A stretch of DNA of 39,319 nt, taken from NCBI GenBank assembly GCA_016650365.1, contig JAENVV010000103.1:1-39319 (forward strand), written 5' to 3'. Numbering within the stretch: position 1 is the stretch's first letter; each line of letters opens with the position of its first letter. A model generated the notes under the pieces. It had not been told where the DNA came from. It did not search any database and saw only the letters and a list, made by a program, of their open reading frames with translations. A program made the position numbers and the translations under genes. The DNA comes from Acidimicrobiia bacterium. Its GTDB lineage: Bacteria > Actinomycetota > Acidimicrobiia > Spongiisociales > JAENVV01. Of the stretch, positions 16,477 through 31,363 are shown piece after piece.

Positions 16477-18252
16477 TCATTTATCGAGCGGGATCGGCCA
16501 CCCTTCGTCCGCGTGGAATATTTCGGCTAGTCGAGCCACATCCGCTTCGAAGCCCTCGGCGGCGGTGATGGTGAATCCACTGGGCGATCCCGCCACCAGA
16601 AATCCCTGGCCAACACTCGCGGCGAATCTGGCCGGATCAACATAGATCTTGGGCTTGATCTGTGCCGGGTCACCCACCTCGGGGCAAAAGACCATGCAAT
16701 TACCGCATTCATTGCATGCTTCGGCGAGCACGAAATATTGCTGCCGACCGGGAAGGTCCATCGACGCGGGGGTTGGCAGTCGGAAGAACGCATCGTTGGG
16801 GCAGACGGTCACGCAAAAGTTGCACGCGACACATCCCCACATCTCGAGATTGTGATCGACATGGCGGGGCAACTTCTCATTCCCTGCGAGGTGATACGTC
16901 GAGTTGAGGTCGCCCGTCAAGATGGCGCTCATGTGGGCGTGGACGGCCCCTCGGAATCCGGCCGCTCTTGCCGCACTCCATTCGTGGCGGCGCCAGGTGG
17001 CGAGCGAATGACAACCGGCCGACCGCATGTCGTCGGCCAATCGGGTCAACATCGGCGCCAACCGGCCATACCCGCCGGGTTTGAGGAGATCGGAACAGAC
17101 CGTCGCCGGCCGCACCCCCATGCCAATCGCCTGGGAAAGGTTTTCTTTGTTGATTCCCGCCGAAAAGCTCACCTGGACGTCTCCTCGATGACCTTCGACC
17201 ATGAACGTGTCGGGGAGCGCCGAGATGAGTTCGTCGAGAAGTGCCGTGGCCAGAACATGCAACGGTGGACCGGACAAATACATGGGATCATCGGGAAGGA
17301 AATCCTTGTGATTCTCCACGACCAGGGTATTCGTCAGTTTGATGCCGAACTTGCGTCCCCGTTCGGCGGCATACGATCGCAACTCTTCGATGAGCGTCAC
17401 CCCACGATCAAATTGCAGGTCATCGGTGAAGGACTGGCGGTTGAGCCGGATATGTTCGTAGCCAAGCTGCTGTTGAACGATCTCACAAACCCTCCCGAAG
17501 CCAAGCAAGGTCGGGTTGAGCTTCACGATGACATCAAGACCGTGATGATCCATCAGATATTTGGTAATCGACTCGATCTCATTGGGAGGACAGCCATGGA
17601 AGGTCGACAACGTCACCGTATCGGCAATACGCGTCGGAAAAGCGATATCCCGTAGGTCGCCGAACGGCTCGGGAATCAGCGGCCGAAGCCGCTCGATCTC
17701 GACGGAGGCGTCCATCATGGACGTGATGAACGCTTCAACCTTCGGACTCGAGATCCCTGCCAGGTCGTAACCAACCGACATGTCGAAGACCAGGGGTCCG
17801 GGGTCACGCCCCACATGGGGGCGGAGCGGGTCCCACTGTTTGAGGATATGGATCATCATCCACGCCTTGACATACTCTTCGAGCGACTCGTGGACCTGTA
17901 GTTCCTGGCTCCACTCGATGTTGAAGCCAATCGTCTCCATATCGATGCACGGTCGGGCGATGTCCAGGTCGTCCATGACCTGGATCGTCTTGAGCTCGAA
18001 AAGGCGGGCACCGCCCAACCACGACAAAACAATGTTCTGGGCCAATTGGCTGTGCGGGCCGGCGGCCGGGCCGATCGGGGTGGCGGCCGGCCTGCCAAGG
18101 AACTCGAACGTGAGATCGACGTCGGGGTCAGGTTTCCAGTACCGAGCAGTCGGCAAATCAAAGATCCGGTTCCGGCTGGCAAATTCGTGAGCGACCCGTC
18201 GCAACAGCACATCCAGCGGGAACGGGGTAAGCGGTGGAACCTTGGGGGCCAT
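16477..18252 (-). CDS. ygfK: YgfK-like Fe-S oxidoreductase, short form
   Basis: A 591-residue protein matching the first half to two thirds of YgfK, the so-called putative selenate reductase subunit. It has a dihydroorotate-dehydrogenase-like barrel (PIGPAAGPHSQLAQN near 58, STFHGCPPNEIESI near 230, IKLTNTLVVEN near 320) and then two 4Fe-4S motifs near 479 (CVACNFCVTVCP) and 512 (CNECGNCMVFCP). E. coli YgfK is about 1030 residues because of a C-terminal GltD-like NAD(P)H/FAD domain; that part is absent here. It is the last gene of the operon, 11 bases after the SsnA-like gene, with GAGAGG before the ATG. Genetic work on gut bacteria links this gene to oxygen-independent urate use; reduction of urate is inferred. 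Confidence 0.85.
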   Translation of the reverse strand: MAPKVPPLTPFPLDVLLRRVAHEFASRNRIFDLPTARYWKPDPDVDLTFEFLGRPAATPIGPAAGPHSQLAQNIVLSWLGGARLFELKTIQVMDDLDIARPCIDMETIGFNIEWSQELQVHESLEEYVKAWMMIHILKQWDPLRPHVGRDPGPLVFDMSVGYDLAGISSPKVEAFITSMMDASVEIERLRPLIPEPFGDLRDIAFPTRIADTVTLSTFHGCPPNEIESITKYLMDHHGLDVIVKLNPTLLGFGRVCEIVQQQLGYEHIRLNRQSFTDDLQFDRGVTLIEELRSYAAERGRKFGIKLTNTLVVENHKDFLPDDPMYLSGPPLHVLATALLDELISALPDTFMVEGHRGDVQVSFSAGINKENLSQAIGMGVRPATVCSDLLKPGGYGRLAPMLTRLADDMRSAGCHSLATWRRHEWSAARAAGFRGAVHAHMSAILTGDLNSTYHLAGNEKLPRHVDHNLEMWGCVACNFCVTVCPNDAFFRLPTPASMDLPGRQQYFVLAEACNECGNCMVFCPEVGDPAQIKPKIYVDPARFAASVGQGFLVAGSPSGFTITAAEGFEADVARLAEIFHADEGWPIPLDK

Positions 18253-19283: not shown

Positions 19284-19322
19284 TTAGCCGACTTTCAGGC
19301 CAGTGATCGCCGGCTCGGTCAT
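19284..19322 (-). other. 12-codon ATGA-coupled leader ORF ending in TAA, in frame with ssnA
   Basis: ATG 19320-19322 overlaps the upstream xanthine dehydrogenase stop as ATGA, exactly where the next operon gene should start. It reads MTEPAITGLKVG and stops at TAA 19284-19286. The following GTG begins the SsnA-like frame, which is in the same frame. It is either the original start of ssnA interrupted by a nonsense codon, or a leader for TAAGTG re-initiation. Confidence 0.6.
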
Positions 19323-21916
19323 GACAAATCGACCGGTGAGTGCGTGTTGATCGGAAGCCGGCTCCGGCGGATCCCGTCGACTTCGTAGAGGGCCTGGGCG
19401 ACCGCGCCGGCGGTCGGTACGAGTCCGATCTCTCCGACCCCTTTGATCCCGAATGGTGCTCTGGGCTGAGGTGCCTCCACGAGGATGACTTCGATTTCGG
19501 GGACGTCCTTGGGACGAAGGATCCCGAGGCTGCGCAACGTCATGTTGGTCGGTCGACCATCGGCGTCGGTTGGGAAGTCTTCGGTGAGGGCATATCCGAG
19601 GCCCATATGAACCGCGCCTTCCACTTGTCCTTTACACAGCAGCGGGTTAACAGCCCGGCCGACATCGTGGGCGGCCACCACCTTCTCGATCTTTCCGGTC
19701 GACTTATCGGCGATCACGATTTGAGCCGCGTAGCCAAAGGCTGAGTGAAGAATCGGATTCTCGAGTCCATCGGAAAGCTTGTTCGTCCAATCGACCCGGT
19801 ACTCGCCCTCGTAATCGATGCCCACCTGGCAGCCATCGGCGAGCGCCGCCTGGCAGGCAGCTTGCACCGACCCGGCCCCCATGAGCGTGCCCCGTGAGCC
19901 GGTCGTCTGACCTGCCCCGAGTTCCCGGGTGGTGTCAACCACCACCCTGATGCGGTTGGCTTCGATTCCGAGCTCCTCGGCGGCTACCTGCATGGCGACG
20001 GTGTGTACTCCCTGGCCCATTTCGGTCCAGCAATGCCGCACTTCGACGGTGCCGTCTTCTTCGAAGCGGACAACCGCCCGAGCCACCTCGAGGAAGCCGT
20101 TGCCGAGACCGGAGTTCTTGAGTGCCAAACCAAGCCCGACCGCTTTGCCGGCCGCCCTTGCTTCGTCATAGGGACCCTTGATCGCTTCCAAACAGAGTCG
20201 GACGCCGGTCGAACCATCATCCATGATCTGGCCGGGGCCCCACACCACTCCGGGTTCGATGGCATTGCGGCTCCGAATTTCCCATCCGCTGATGCCGACC
20301 TGCTCGGCCAGCCGATCCATCACCCCTTCCATGGCGAATTGCGCCTGGTTGGCTCCAAACCCGCGGAATGCGCCGCACACCGAGTTGTTGGTCCGAACCG
20401 CGGTCGCTTTTACGTCGATGTTTGGCACAACGTATGGTCCGCTGGCGTGACCGGCCGCCCGTTCCAGAACCTTCATGCCGACCGAGGCGTATGGTCCAGA
20501 ATCGCCGATCATGCGGACCTTGAGTCCGACCAGTTTGCCGTTCTCGTCGCATCCCGCGCGGGTTTCGATCCGAATGGGATGCCGCTTGGCGTGCATGAAA
20601 AAACTCTGTTCGCGAGTGAGGGTGCACTTGACCGGCCGACCAGACAAGTGGGCTGCCAGGGCCGTCTGCGCCTGGTTCGACATGTCTTCCTTGCCACCGA
20701 ACGCTCCCCCGTTCGATACCAACTCGACGGTTATCGACGCCCGGTCGACCCCGAGGACGGCGGCGATCTGGTCCCGGTCGTCCCAGACTCCTTGTCCGCC
20801 GGAATACACGTGGAGTCCGGACCCGGCTGGCACTGCCAGGGTCGACTCTGGTTCCAGAAACGCCTGCTCGACACGCTGGGTCACAAAGAGTTCGTCAACG
20901 GTGAATGCCGCCCCGGCCAGGGCCTGATCCACATCGCCGCGGACATACTCCGAGACCGAAAGCTGGTTTCCGTCCAAGCCCCACACGGCGTCTTCGTCGT
21001 TGAGCGCCGTGATCGGATCGGTGATCGGTATGAGCACGTTATAGGACACGTCAATGAGGTCGGCAGCTTGGCGGGCGGTCTGCTGATCCTCGGCGACGAC
21101 AATCGCGAGAACGTCCCCCAGATACGAGGTTCGACCTCCCACCGGGATGAACACCGGCCAGTCCTTTTGGATGATTCCCACCCGCAGGTCACCAGGGACA
21201 TCTGCCCCGGTGTAAATGGCGATCACGCCAGGCAACGCCAGAGCGACACCGGCATCGATTGAAAGGACATCGGCGCGCGCGTGGTCGGTTAGCCGGAGGG
21301 CCCCGTGTGCCATAGCGGGCACCCGCAAATCATCGACGTAGCCACGATCGCCGAGAGCCAACGCTTCCGCCTCATATTTGACACTTGAGGCGCCGATACC
21401 ACCCTCGACGGCGACCGCCGGAATTTCTACACCAGATGCCAATAGTTCTATCGCTTCGACGATCCCCACATACCCGGTGCAGCGACACAGGTGGGCGCCC
21501 AGCCGTCCCTCGATGGTGGCGCGGTCAAGATCCTGGCCTTTTTGATCGATGAGCGCCTTGGCACGAACCAAAATGCCGGGAGTACAAAACCCGCATTGAA
21601 GAGCACCCTTGGCGGCAAACCCGCGCGCCAGGCGGTCACGTTCGTCCTCGTCGAATCCTTCGAGCGTGAGCACTTCTTTTCCGGCGGCCTTCTCCATCGA
21701 AACAAGGCAGGCCTGAATTGCCTTGCCGTCGAGGAGGATCGTGCAGCAGCCACACTGGCCTTGTGGCGCACATCCGTCCTTGGCCGAGGTGATACCGACC
21801 TCTTCACGGAGGGCGGCCAGCAGATGGGGATGATGCATGCCGACCTCGATCGGCTGGCCATTCACAATCAGGCTGGCCTTTTCGGTGGTACGAACATAAA
21901 CCGGGGTGGCAGTCAT
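19319..21916 (-). CDS. xdhD: Xanthine dehydrogenase of the XdhD / selenium-dependent type (2Fe-2S + Mo fusion)
   Basis: An 865-residue protein with an N-terminal 2Fe-2S domain (Cys49, Cys55, Cys58, Cys70; then QCGFCTPG and HLCRCTGY, to about 160) fused to the molybdopterin chain. The latter shows EPESTLAVP, GGAFGGKEDMSNQ, GAFRGFGANQAQF, TEMGQGVHTVAMQVAAEELG and FGIKGVGEIGLVP with the catalytic Glu. This fusion and length match XdhD and the selenium-dependent xanthine dehydrogenases of clostridia and enterococci, where selenium is a Mo-bound cofactor, not selenocysteine. No FAD subunit (YgfM) is in this operon. It overlaps the upstream nitrilase by ATGA. It is assumed to act on xanthine, urate or a related purine. 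Confidence 0.88.
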   Translation of the reverse strand: MTATPVYVRTTEKASLIVNGQPIEVGMHHPHLLAALREEVGITSAKDGCAPQGQCGCCTILLDGKAIQACLVSMEKAAGKEVLTLEGFDEDERDRLARGFAAKGALQCGFCTPGILVRAKALIDQKGQDLDRATIEGRLGAHLCRCTGYVGIVEAIELLASGVEIPAVAVEGGIGASSVKYEAEALALGDRGYVDDLRVPAMAHGALRLTDHARADVLSIDAGVALALPGVIAIYTGADVPGDLRVGIIQKDWPVFIPVGGRTSYLGDVLAIVVAEDQQTARQAADLIDVSYNVLIPITDPITALNDEDAVWGLDGNQLSVSEYVRGDVDQALAGAAFTVDELFVTQRVEQAFLEPESTLAVPAGSGLHVYSGGQGVWDDRDQIAAVLGVDRASITVELVSNGGAFGGKEDMSNQAQTALAAHLSGRPVKCTLTREQSFFMHAKRHPIRIETRAGCDENGKLVGLKVRMIGDSGPYASVGMKVLERAAGHASGPYVVPNIDVKATAVRTNNSVCGAFRGFGANQAQFAMEGVMDRLAEQVGISGWEIRSRNAIEPGVVWGPGQIMDDGSTGVRLCLEAIKGPYDEARAAGKAVGLGLALKNSGLGNGFLEVARAVVRFEEDGTVEVRHCWTEMGQGVHTVAMQVAAEELGIEANRIRVVVDTTRELGAGQTTGSRGTLMGAGSVQAACQAALADGCQVGIDYEGEYRVDWTNKLSDGLENPILHSAFGYAAQIVIADKSTGKIEKVVAAHDVGRAVNPLLCKGQVEGAVHMGLGYALTEDFPTDADGRPTNMTLRSLGILRPKDVPEIEVILVEAPQPRAPFGIKGVGEIGLVPTAGAVAQALYEVDGIRRSRLPINTHSPVDLS

Positions 21917-27659: not shown

Positions 27660-28667
27660 ATCGACGCCGCCCTGAGAGGCCTTCCCAAGGCCGAGCTTCA
27701 CTGTCACATTGAGGGAACGCTCGAACCCGAAATGCAGTTTGCTCTGGCGAGCCGCAACGGCCAAACCGGTCGCTATTCATCCGTCGAAGAACTCAGAGCC
27801 GCATACGATTTCACCGATCTTCAGTCCTTCCTCGATATCTACTACGAAGGGGCCGCGGCCTTAAGGACCGAGGAAGATTTTTACGACCTCACCTGGGCGT
27901 ACCTGGAACGGGCAGCTGCCGACGGCGTGCGCCGAGCGGAGGTTTTCTTTGATCCCCAAACCCATACCGAACGGGGCGTCAGCCTCGAGACGGTCATCAA
28001 TGGGATCGGGGCGGCCCTTGATCGCAGCACCGAGTTTGGGATTTCGACCGGACTGATTCTGTGCTTTCTACGCCATCTGGGCGCTACCGAAGCGCTCGCT
28101 ACCCTCGAACAAGCCCTCCCCTATCGCAATCGCCTCCTCGGAGTGGGCCTCGATTCATCCGAGAGTGGTCTTCCACCCGAGCTATTCGCGGCGACCTACG
28201 ACCTGGCCAGACAGGAGGGCCTTCGACTGGTTGCCCACGCCGGCGAAGAAGGACCACCTGAGTACATCTGGCAGGCGCTGGACGTGTTGGGTGTCGAACG
28301 TATCGACCACGGTGTGAGCGCTATCGAAGACCCGGCCCTCGTCGATCGACTGGCTGCCGATCAAATTGCCTTGACAATGTGTCCCCTATCGAATCTAAAA
28401 CTCCACGTTGTCGCTGACCTCGCCGAGCATCCGCTCGGGCGATTGCTCGACGCAGGCGTACAGGTGACCGTCAATTCCGACGACCCCGCCTATTTCGGTG
28501 GGTACCTCGGCGCCAACTACGACGCCGTCGGCCGGGCACTTGGTCTTGAACCATCCGCACTGATTCAGCTGGCTCGTAACAGCCTTGAAGCGTCGTTCCT
28601 CCCCGAAACCGACCCGATTTTCGCTGAGTTCGAGCGGGGCGTCGCAGCCTTGGAGTTGGTCGAATAG
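27660..28667 (+). CDS. add: Adenosine deaminase family protein with a non-standard ATC start
   Basis: A 335-residue TIM-barrel deaminase converting adenosine (or adenine) to inosine (hypoxanthine). The metal-binding HCH is residues 14-16 in LPKAELHCHIEG; further motifs are AHAGEEGPP, IDHGVSAI, CPLSNLKL and NSDDPAYFGG. The first ATG (27732) lies nine codons after the HCH, so it cannot be the start of a working enzyme. Between the upstream stop and that ATG the frame offers only ATC, ATC and a CTG; ATC 27660 sits six bases after the AGGAGG core of a perfect ribosome-binding site. A one-base sequence error is the alternative. It fits the purine salvage and degradation theme. Confidence 0.85.
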   Translation: MDAALRGLPKAELHCHIEGTLEPEMQFALASRNGQTGRYSSVEELRAAYDFTDLQSFLDIYYEGAAALRTEEDFYDLTWAYLERAAADGVRRAEVFFDPQTHTERGVSLETVINGIGAALDRSTEFGISTGLILCFLRHLGATEALATLEQALPYRNRLLGVGLDSSESGLPPELFAATYDLARQEGLRLVAHAGEEGPPEYIWQALDVLGVERIDHGVSAIEDPALVDRLAADQIALTMCPLSNLKLHVVADLAEHPLGRLLDAGVQVTVNSDDPAYFGGYLGANYDAVGRALGLEPSALIQLARNSLEASFLPETDPIFAEFERGVAALELVE

Positions 28668-28714
28668 CCAGTTGAACCGGCCGACCGTCCCGTGGTCGTT
28701 GATGCGAACGATTG

Positions 28715-28745
28715 ACGCCCACCCCACTCGTCGAGTGGTGGGCGT
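28715..28745 (+). terminator. Hairpin after the adenosine deaminase gene
   Basis: ACGCCCACC-CC-ACTC pairs with GAGTGGTGGGCGT: 13 base pairs with a two-base bulge and a tight loop. It lies about 50 bases after the deaminase stop and before the selenoprotein gene. No U-tract follows, as is common for terminators in high-GC actinobacteria. Confidence 0.5.
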
Positions 28746-28809
28746 ACCGAACCGACCGATCTGGCGATTCACGGGGATAGTCTGAAGTTCCCCTATCGTG
28801 GGTACACCT

Positions 28810-29103
28810 ATGCAGCTTGACATCACCCCCGAAGCCATAGCCCTGGTCCGCCGGAAGGGCGGGGTCATGGCCATCGACTTCATCCCCCCGATCAGTTGAG
28901 GCGGAACGCTTCAGGTGTCGGTCGACACCTACCTCAAAGGCAAGGATCTGGCCCCGTACCAACGGCTGGAGGTCGACGATGTCGAACTGCATGTATCGCC
29001 GGCACTATCGACCTGGGCAGATCGAGCCACGGTGACGGTCAGGTCGGGAGCGCTTGGTAAGAGGTTTGAGATTCTCGCCGACCACAAACACCAACCGACG
29101 TGA
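28810..29103 (+). CDS. Small selenoprotein with Sec30 encoded by in-frame TGA (HesB-like / CC-Se type)
   Basis: From ATG 28810 the frame reads MQLDITPEAIALVRRKGG, then DFIPPIS, TGA (28897-28899), GGTLQVSVDTYLKGKD and on to TGA 29101-29103, 97 residues in all. Coding character (hydrophobic strands, EVDDVELHVSP) continues unbroken across the TGA, and a SECIS-like hairpin starts at that TGA. Small HesB-like proteins with one Cys or Sec in a G-rich turn after an N-terminal strand look similar; the function of such proteins is unknown, probably redox or metal/selenium handling. The ribosome-binding site is weak, and GTG 28798 in frame is an alternative start. Gene callers would report only the 62-residue remainder from 28915. 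The selenium link agrees with the XdhD and YgfK neighbours. Confidence 0.78.
28897..28936 (+). promoter_or_regulatory. Bacterial SECIS element
   Basis: The in-frame TGA with two following bases (TGAGG, 28897-28901) pairs with CCTCA (28932-28936). Above an internal loop, AGGTGTC (28913-28919) pairs perfectly with GACACCT (28924-28930), closing a GGTC loop (28920-28923). The loop begins 20 bases after the TGA. UGA at the foot of a ~40-nt hairpin with a G-U containing apical loop is the bacterial SECIS design read by SelB; the GGUC loop core also occurs in E. coli fdhF. Confidence 0.78.
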
Positions 29104-29114
29104 AGTCATTGAAG

Positions 29115-29132
29115 GAGCACCGGTCGGTGCTC
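29115..29132 (+). terminator. Hairpin just after the selenoprotein gene, GGTC loop
   Basis: GAGCACC (29115-29121) pairs with GGTGCTC (29126-29132) around a GGTC loop, 11 bases after the TGA 29101-29103. The simplest reading is a terminator without U-tract. Its loop is identical to that of the SECIS element and begins 18 bases after a TGA, so a second SECIS-like role is conceivable. Confidence 0.5.
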
Positions 29133-29178
29133 TCCAGTGGCTGGTCAGACGGATGACTCGCAGATGAATGGCGTACGT

Positions 29179-29193: not shown

Positions 29194-29212
29194 GTGATTG
29201 CGAGAGGATGAC

Positions 29213-29461
29213 ATGGATCTAGCTGCCGAGTTTCTGGTGGAGCCTTTCTCAGAGGGTTCGCCTGGGCCCCACGTGCAGGCGGCAGTTCGGGCCGTCGAGT
29301 CGACTGGACTGGTTGTAGACGTCGGCCCGTTCGGCAACACCACCACCGGCGAAGCAACCATGGTCCTGGCGGCGGTTAGCTCGGCCATGGCTGCGGCTAT
29401 CAATGCCGGAGCTACCCGGGTGAGCCTCAGCCTCATCCGTGGCGAAACCCCTACCCCATGA
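29213..29461 (+). CDS. YkoF/MTH1187-like thiamine-binding-fold protein
   Basis: An 82-residue protein of the small ferredoxin-like family once called DUF77. It begins with a strand followed by EPFSEGSPGPHVQAAVRAVES, then GLVVDVGPFGNTTTGE and a helix VLAAVSSAMAAAINAGATRVSLSL. Family members bind thiamine or related cations and often lie near transport or regulatory genes. ATG 29213 is preceded by AGAGG; an in-frame TTG five codons upstream is less likely. It overlaps the following HTH gene by four bases (ATGA), so both are expressed together. Confidence 0.8.
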   Translation: MDLAAEFLVEPFSEGSPGPHVQAAVRAVESTGLVVDVGPFGNTTTGEATMVLAAVSSAMAAAINAGATRVSLSLIRGETPTP

Positions 29462-29820
29462 GCGTTCATACAACGTTCGCCGCGGCCCTCGAACCACTAT
29501 TACGGGTTATCGGCGCCACCGCTATCGACGTTGCAGAAGCTACTGACTCGGACGTCGTGCTGGAATGGGCCGGTCGGCCGGCCGTGGCGATTCGCCTCGA
29601 CTTCGCCGAAACGACCGCCGCTCAGGTGCGCGGCGTGGAAACCGAATTCGGGGCTCCCCTGTCAGACCTGACCCGCGAACAGAAACAGATCGCAGTGCGG
29701 ATTCTCGACGAACGAGGAGCCTTTGCGCTACGAAAAGCCATTGAAGACGTCGCTGACGCGATGGGCGTCAGTCGCATCACGATCTACAACTATCTCAATG
29801 CGATCAGACAGGCTGACTGA
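29458..29820 (+). CDS. Short DauR/YheO-type helix-turn-helix regulator
   Basis: A 120-residue protein. Its last ~50 residues (LTREQKQIAVRILDERGAF, then ALRKAIEDVADAMGVSRITIYNYLN) match the HTH domain of YheO/DauR regulators, the latter controlling D-arginine catabolism. The normal N-terminal PAS-like domain of about 110 residues is replaced by a ~65-residue segment rich in acidic and Ala/Val residues that I do not recognise. It is translationally coupled to the YkoF-like gene and precedes two PLP enzymes, so it probably controls this amino-acid branch. The TTTAC-N5-GTAAA palindrome upstream is a candidate site. Confidence 0.78.
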   Translation: MSVHTTFAAALEPLLRVIGATAIDVAEATDSDVVLEWAGRPAVAIRLDFAETTAAQVRGVETEFGAPLSDLTREQKQIAVRILDERGAFALRKAIEDVADAMGVSRITIYNYLNAIRQAD

Positions 29821-29875: not shown

Positions 29876-31363
29876 GTGACAACTTCCATCATGGGTCTTT
29901 TCGACACCATCGTCGACGAGAGGGCCCTGACCAACACCGTCGAGCGTTTTCGGGAACGTGAGATCGCGCTTCCGACGTTTGCCCAACTCGCCGATCCGTC
30001 GACGATGCCAGAAGGCGTGAGAGACGCTCTTGCCAATGTGGGCCCGGATGATCCAGACCCTCGCAATCTGTGGCGGGTCAACTGGTATAACGATGAGCAC
30101 CGGACCGGCCGAACGGATGTCCCGGAGTACGTCGAAATTCCAAGCGAATTGAGCGGCATCGATGTCCGGATCCTCATGGCACTTGGGGACAAGTTCCCGA
30201 TGATCCGCGCCCACAAGGTATTGGCGGCCTACGCCTGCCTGGCGCCCCGCATCGTCACCGGGGCGTTTGATCCAACCCGCCATCGGGCCATTTGGCCGTC
30301 GACCGGCAACTATGCCAGGGGCGGCGTCGCCATCAGCCGGATCATGGGCTGCCGCGCGATGGCCGTCTTGCCCGAAGGCATGAGCCAGGAACGGTTCGAC
30401 TGGCTTAACGAATGGACTGCGGGTCCTGAGGACATCCTGCGGACGACCGGAACCGAATCCAATGTCAAAGAGATCTATGACGCCTGCAACGAGCTGGCCA
30501 AAGACCCGGCCAATGTGGTCTTGAATCAGTTCTCGGAGTTCGCCAACCACCTCGGGCACTACTACGTAACCGGGCGGGCCCTCGAACACATCTACGAAGC
30601 GGCCGGTGGAGGAAACCTCGTGGCCTTTGTCTCGGCCTCCGGATCGGGGGGAACGATCGCGGCGGGCGACTACCTCAAGGAACGCCATGGATCCCGGATC
30701 GTGGCGGTCGAGGCCCTGGAGTGTCCCACGATGCTCTACAACGGATATGGCGAGCACAACATTCAGGGCATCGGCGACAAACACATTCCGCTCATCCAGA
30801 ATGTCATGAACACAGACGATGTCGTGGCCATCACCGACCATGCCACCGACACGTTATTGCTGCTATTCAACACTCCGGCCGGAAAAGACTATCTCGTCGG
30901 TCAGGGACTCGACCCGGCCCTGGTCGATCAGCTCAAACATCTCGGGTTCTCGTCAATCGCCAACCTGCTGGCTGCCATCAAAGTCGCCAAATTGCACGGC
31001 TACGGAGCAGGCGACGTCATTGTCACCGTGGCGACCGACGGGTTCGAACTGTACAAGTCGGAAGTGGACAAGATCATCTCCCGGGACCATCCAGGTGGCT
31101 TCGGCGAAACGGCTGCCGCGGCGGCCCATGCCCGGTTCCTCACCGGCATCGATACCGATCACACGGTCGACATCGGGGCGATCGGGAGGAAACGGATATT
31201 CAACCTCGGTTACTACACGTGGGTCGAGCAGCAAGGCGTCGATTTCGAGTCATTCGAAGCCAGACGATCCCAGAAATTCTGGAAGGACCTCCATGGACAC
31301 GTCGAACGTTGGGACGCCCAGATCAACGAATTCAACGCCCGGACCGGAGTGACGGTTGACTGA
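29876..31363 (+). CDS. Fold-type-II PLP-dependent enzyme (ammonia-lyase/cysteine-synthase-like)
   Basis: A 495-residue PLP enzyme. The Schiff-base lysine is probably Lys114 in MIRAHKVLAAYACLAP, reminiscent of the xFKMLGG motif of diaminopropionate ammonia-lyase. STGNYARGGVAISRIMG (about 142-158) is the substrate/Asn loop, and SASGSGGTIAAGDYLKE near 258 is the phosphate-binding glycine loop. A long N-terminal extension and a C-terminal ~90-residue helical part are unusual for cysteine synthase. GTG 29876 has AAGGAG five bases upstream. It overlaps the second PLP gene by eight bases. In yge/ygf clusters a PLP lyase (YgeX) finishes the pathway; this pair may do the same, but the reaction is unproved. 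Confidence 0.8.
   Translation: MTTSIMGLFDTIVDERALTNTVERFREREIALPTFAQLADPSTMPEGVRDALANVGPDDPDPRNLWRVNWYNDEHRTGRTDVPEYVEIPSELSGIDVRILMALGDKFPMIRAHKVLAAYACLAPRIVTGAFDPTRHRAIWPSTGNYARGGVAISRIMGCRAMAVLPEGMSQERFDWLNEWTAGPEDILRTTGTESNVKEIYDACNELAKDPANVVLNQFSEFANHLGHYYVTGRALEHIYEAAGGGNLVAFVSASGSGGTIAAGDYLKERHGSRIVAVEALECPTMLYNGYGEHNIQGIGDKHIPLIQNVMNTDDVVAITDHATDTLLLLFNTPAGKDYLVGQGLDPALVDQLKHLGFSSIANLLAAIKVAKLHGYGAGDVIVTVATDGFELYKSEVDKIISRDHPGGFGETAAAAAHARFLTGIDTDHTVDIGAIGRKRIFNLGYYTWVEQQGVDFESFEARRSQKFWKDLHGHVERWDAQINEFNARTGVTVD

Follow-up and report, generated by a model that had tools for sequence, protein, structure and literature searches.

In IscA, the ligands are a central Cys and two further Cys close together at the C terminus. 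Among the described small bacterial selenoproteins, the HesB-like group (TIGR01911) has a single Sec in a UxGP motif, and the NF041239 family (CC/Se motif, Moorella thermoacetica type) has one Sec and a CxxU motif according to a 2026 review, which places bacterial SECIS elements inside coding regions (PMC13188914). The DNA analyzed here, which we call the window, is a stretch of 39,319 nucleotides from an Acidimicrobiia bacterium (contig JAENVV010000103.1). One gene on its forward strand is very likely to be decoded with two Sec residues, Sec30 and Sec98. This reading is based on two UGA codons that are both conserved, aligned with Cys in relatives and accompanied by a constrained hairpin, in a genome that encodes the Sec machinery.

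An earlier note, made from the letters of the window, had proposed a selenoprotein gene with a single Sec codon, and that proposal is supported. The note had named three findings that would count against it: a genome lacking sel genes, no homologues spanning the TGA at codon 30, and homologues in which the upstream 29 codons are not conserved. All three were looked for and none was found. The genome contains the sel genes, homologues spanning codon 30 exist with TGA or Cys at that codon, and the 29 upstream codons are conserved in them. The probable second Sec codon, the later gene end and a candidate SECIS hairpin past the stop are new beyond the note. The features of the locus are as follows.

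28810..29112, + strand: putative two-Sec selenoprotein gene, 100 codons plus stop, ATG start at 28810, Sec at codons 30 and 98
28897..28899, + strand: TGA codon 30, putative Sec30, in the column of the family's first conserved Cys
28913..28930, + strand: SECIS1 hairpin, 7-bp stem AGGTGTC/GACACCT, loop GGTC at 28920-28923, inside the coding sequence
29101..29103, + strand: TGA codon 98, probable Sec98, resembling a stop codon and aligned with the C-terminal Cys
29104..29109, + strand: codons 99 and 100 (Ser-His), the end of the HxHxxx[U/C]xH tail
29110..29112, + strand: putative true stop TGA, variable among double-TGA genes
29114..29133, + strand: candidate SECIS2 hairpin, 8-bp stem GGAGCACC/GGTGCTCT, loop GGTC at 29122-29125, in the 3′ UTR

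Fold and family of the predicted protein

AlphaFold2 modeled the protein confidently (mean pLDDT 86), except for the C-terminal tail, where confidence was low (57). Its closest structures in the PDB were E. coli SufA (2d2a; E = 3.5e-5, TM 0.70) and, also close, IscA with a [2Fe-2S] cluster (1x0g; E = 2.2e-4), both with a Foldseek probability of 1.00. A HesB/IscA/SufA fold is thus predicted for the selenoprotein from the model. At the level of sequence, the window had no Pfam match to PF01521 at E ≤ 1, while two relatives matched it (best E = 0.02), and a PDB search with the family profile matched no chain. Sec30 and Sec98 presumably lie in the regions where IscA has its first Cys and its C-terminal pair of Cys, a correspondence by region and not by coordinates. 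Compared with IscA and SufA, the window would have Sec in place of the ligand Cys and HxHxxxUxH in place of the C-terminal Cys pair.

The nearest family model was NF041239, which the window's protein matched with 28.4 bits (E = 1.3e-6) and which all 15 members of A1 matched (best E = 7.7e-10). Its cut-off of 40 bits was reached by no individually scored protein, with relatives ranging from 12.9 to 39.3 bits. The earlier description of the protein as HesB-like and of CC-Se type was therefore right in kind, given the IscA/SufA fold and NF041239 as the nearest model, but the match itself falls below the cut-off. By sequence similarity, the family is related to NF041239 but divergent from it. Like that family, it consists of small proteins with a Sec/Cys position, and the two are similar over most of their length. 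Unlike it, the window has PPIS-U-GG with no Cys near Sec30, the CxxU/CC motif is absent, and the window's order appears to have a second, C-terminal Sec. Because no individually scored protein of the group reaches the cut-off, standard annotation probably misses or truncates these genes. A distant relative in genome G192 (L045:1501-1785) has Cys-Cys (ACCGG) at the Sec30 position and scores 39.3 bits to NF041239; on this sequence evidence, it is a bridge to the CC/Se family. The likeness to the HesB-like selenoproteins of TIGR01911, as a small IscA/HesB-type selenoprotein, is one of name, and the window had no match to that model at E ≤ 1.

Codon 30 and its hairpin

The 97-codon frame described in the note, running from 28810 with TGA at codon 30 as its only internal stop, is present in the window. 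Standard annotation would give a fragment of 62 residues, as had been stated; it is the longest piece after codon 30, starts with GTG at 28915 and runs up to the TGA at 29101. Coding character does continue on both sides of codon 30, where the third-position bias of substitutions between close gene pairs is equal: counts at codon positions 1, 2 and 3 were 39, 24 and 145 upstream and 50, 37 and 183 downstream.

Full-length homologues of the product were found in searches of genome contigs, of the window's order and of its class. In a scan with one genome per species, 14 encoded relatives were recovered, with TGA at codon 30 in 12 and TGC in 2; further relatives came from whole-genome searches of the phylum, order and class. 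In three pairs of loci, an identical or almost identical gene was found twice (L009/L047, L010/L046 and L011/L048; the window is close to L047), and duplicate loci were excluded from counts called distinct. Codon 30 is TGA in 28 distinct related genes and TGC or TGT in six relatives (L019, L020, L037, L038, L039 and L044).

The perfect 7-bp stem with a GGTC loop that the note had placed 20 nt past the codon 30 TGA is there, at a spacing of exactly 20 nt. Published limits for bacterial SECIS elements are a loop of 3 to 9 nt with G within its first two positions, a stem of 4 to 16 bp, a spacing of 16 to 37 nt and a minimum free energy of −7.5 kcal/mol or lower. SECIS1 satisfies this model (−9.7 kcal/mol, 7 bp, 20 nt). 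In a codon-level comparison of the 28 distinct TGA genes, SECIS1 codons 36 to 40 had zero synonymous variation, against a mean heterozygosity of 0.45 at the 46 other degenerate codons. The hairpin was absent from both Cys forms put through the identical hairpin test. By sequence comparison, the combination of a codon 30 TGA with this hairpin is beyond chance. The outer TGAGG/CCTCA stem that the note had included is complementary, but it lies outside the minimum-energy fold of the window, and relatives do not keep its CCTCA side. It was rejected as a part of SECIS1, and the element conserved among the aligned genes is the upper stem and loop only.

Codon 98, the gene end and the second hairpin

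The note had ended the frame at 29103, but the TGA there very probably encodes another Sec, which would place the gene end at 29112. Alignment A4 includes 17 relatives from outside the window's genus, and 16 of them have Cys in the column of codon 98; in the 17th (L042), the entry in this column is its stop codon, and a Cys pair lies just upstream of the column. All 16 carriers in the window's order have TGA at both codon 30 and codon 98, while the other 14 carriers found in the class belong to different orders and have a single TGA each. In double-TGA genes, codon 98 is followed by [S/T/R/Q]-His and then by a variable stop. Among the 15 distinct double-TGA genes, 7 use TGA as this stop, 4 use TAA and 4 use TAG, and codon 98 is always TGA. 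Of 48 sequences, 31 have the resulting HxHxxx[U/C]xH tail; every one of the 16 double-TGA genes is among them, and single-Sec relatives share it. From these comparisons, the apparent stop at 29101-29103 is probably Sec98. Five single-Sec relatives in another order of the class (L081, L083, L084, L085 and L089) have Cys-rich tails (CNVC, CEVC, CCT, DCC) in place of the HxHxxxCxH tail.

SECIS2 begins beyond the true stop, with its loop 18 nt past the codon 98 TGA, and it satisfies the published limits (−13.0 kcal/mol, 8 bp, 18 nt). Double-TGA genes have a GGTC or GGT loop 17 to 22 nt past this TGA; the loop deviates in L052, L056 and L059 (GTC or GTT), and the hairpin of L048 forms only with one mismatch. 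Across nine aligned genes, the stem sequences diverge widely while complementarity is kept: 95.4% of cells are paired versus 60.2% in shuffles. Both sides of the stem have changed in 8 of 8 pairs, and the covariation score was 0.878 versus 0.269, with none of 500 shuffles as high. A strict form of the pattern was found in 11 of 15 genes (0.027 expected) and in 0 of 14 relatives that have Cys at position 98 and an ordinary stop behind it. An Rfam search of the region returned no match. SECIS2 has no T-run and no terminator-like site, and its interpretation as a terminator was rejected on these grounds.

Both hairpins thus resemble bacterial SelB-dependent SECIS elements in loop size, stem length, G position, spacing and energy. 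Unlike the described elements, SECIS2 sits past a stop codon, just beyond the true stop, and for this reason UGA98 looks like a stop. A C-terminal Sec would require a SECIS beyond the coding end, and a Cys-Cys-COOH selenoprotein whose motif is CU appears in the review (PMC13188914), so precedents for a SECIS past the stop may exist. In the proposed mechanism, each UGA would have a GGUC-loop hairpin of its own, through which SelB and tRNA-Sec decode it, SECIS1 acting inside the coding sequence and SECIS2 from just past the true stop, and the product would be a 100-residue selenoprotein of the IscA/HesB fold with Sec30 and Sec98.

Two other readings of the codons were weighed against two-Sec decoding. 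Only UGA30 might be recoded, with UGA98 an ordinary stop and the hairpin behind it a terminator or an mRNA-stabilizing element. TGA is indeed common as a stop in these genomes (7 of the 15 true stops), and gene-end hairpins are common too, such as a 15-bp hairpin past the stop in L041. Against this, codon 98 falls in the Cys column of the family, and it is TGA in 15 of 15 distinct members of the order, an outcome with a probability of about 1e-5 if genes are taken as independent and use stops as they do at the next stop downstream. The His two codons further on is conserved across codon 98. The hairpin has a GGT(C) loop, nearly fixed spacing and full covariation, is missing after the stops of the 14 Cys98 relatives and lacks a T-run. 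We consider recoding of UGA30 only to be very unlikely. Less probable still, to the point of being negligible, is chance read-through or a decayed gene in which both TGA codons are genuine stops. Longer antisense ORFs do overlap the gene (28395-28883 and 28471-28992, both on the − strand), but the forward frame keeps its third-position bias on either side of codon 30, Sec or Cys is kept across classes of Actinomycetota, and the genome encodes the Sec machinery; sequence comparison already refutes this reading.

Sec machinery, distribution and possible function

The sel genes that the note had suggested seeking are present in the window's genome, an assembly 97.8% complete: tRNA-Sec(UCA), selA, selB and selD were all detected above cut-offs. 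ARAGORN gave the anticodon of tRNA-Sec as tca, and selA adjoins selB. The SelD gene (L032, contig C5:22455-23384, −) has an in-frame TGA of its own at the usual Sec position (HGAGUACK), which brings the genome to at least three selenoprotein genes. The other is a formate dehydrogenase alpha fragment (L095, C302:6-1838, −) with an in-frame TGA (NRTUHAPS) and a SECIS-like hairpin whose GGTCT loop lies 18 nt past the UGA. Together with SECIS1 and SECIS2, this hairpin indicates that one genome has the same type of SECIS in three places.

All 16 carriers in the window's order had a selA match, one of them by a fragment only, in a genome 72% complete. Since selA was found in 117 of 138 genomes of the order, its presence in all carriers is consistent with the proposal but not discriminating. 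In the phylum sample, selA and tRNA-Sec were both found in seven of eight TGA carriers; neither was detected in G378, a genome 80% complete that carries the TGA form. One selA match in the window's order (G445:C24:10358-11668) itself contains one in-frame TGA, which may reflect a sequencing error, decay or recoding. A tree of 44 proteins neither recovered the double-Sec group as one clade nor excluded it, and the change from Cys98 to Sec may have occurred in one or several events. A plasmid search gave no match. In the literature covered, with few subscription journals, one paper mentions both Acidimicrobiia and selenoprotein, on another subject; such an absence is weak evidence.

The aligned sequences indicate that selenium is probably present at both positions where relatives have conserved Cys. 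Given the IscA-like Sec regions and the conserved His, a site that binds a metal or an Fe-S cluster is preferred. That the two selenolates and the tail His (HxHxxxUxH) form such a site, as in A-type carriers, is an evenly balanced proposition. The fuller proposal, an IscA-like carrier with both Cys ligands changed to Sec, a bis-selenolate and His metal or Fe-S site and a second SECIS past the stop, is tentative and a little less probable. Its main rival is a metal-free redox enzyme in which Sec30 and Sec98 form a diselenide or a thiol-selenol pair that reduces peroxides or disulfides. Uncharacterized bacterial selenoproteins are mostly thought to be redox proteins (PMC13188914), and among members read to the end, almost all have a Cys or Sec residue at both positions or beside them. 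However, the predicted fold is that of IscA/SufA and not thioredoxin-like, the three conserved tail His around the second Sec suggest metal binding, and no CxxU or UxxC motif is present. We regard the redox enzyme as unlikely, though a serious competitor to the metal or Fe-S site.

If the two-Sec decoding is correct, this would be a small protein family with selenium in place of both conserved family Cys, opening selenolate ligation in an IscA-like site to direct test. It would also provide a selenoprotein whose apparent stop is a second Sec codon, with a SECIS past the true stop. Such genes would be truncated by gene finders, and also by selenoprotein searches in which the following TGA is taken as the end. 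A rule for searches elsewhere would be to look for a TGA "stop" in the column of a conserved C-terminal Cys and, downstream of it, a GGTC hairpin that covaries.

The note had also implied a link to a purine and selenium gene cluster, but this neighborhood is common only to four loci of the window's genus. A general operon link was rejected, as other families show unrelated neighbors when read from sequence, and an arrangement found beside the selenoprotein only in one genus says little about function. The window encodes a single-chain xanthine dehydrogenase (19319-21916, −) that scores 824.6 bits to the selenium-dependent model TIGR03311 (cut-off, 830.45). It also encodes a shortened YgfK-like protein of 591 residues (16477-18252, −) that matches mainly the first 400 of 1,012 model positions, as well as SsnA-like and carbamate kinase genes and two carbamoyltransferases. 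YqeB is a maturation factor tied to selenium-dependent hydroxylases; the window's genome has only a weak match to yqeB (28 bits versus a cut-off of 220). Directly after the selenoprotein gene lie two small ORFs (29198-29461 and 29458-29820, both +), the first of which matches no NCBIfam model and is retained across the window's genus. They are followed by a gene for a 495-residue protein (29876-31363, +) with partial similarity to cysteine synthase, far under cut-offs, which is also kept in the genus.
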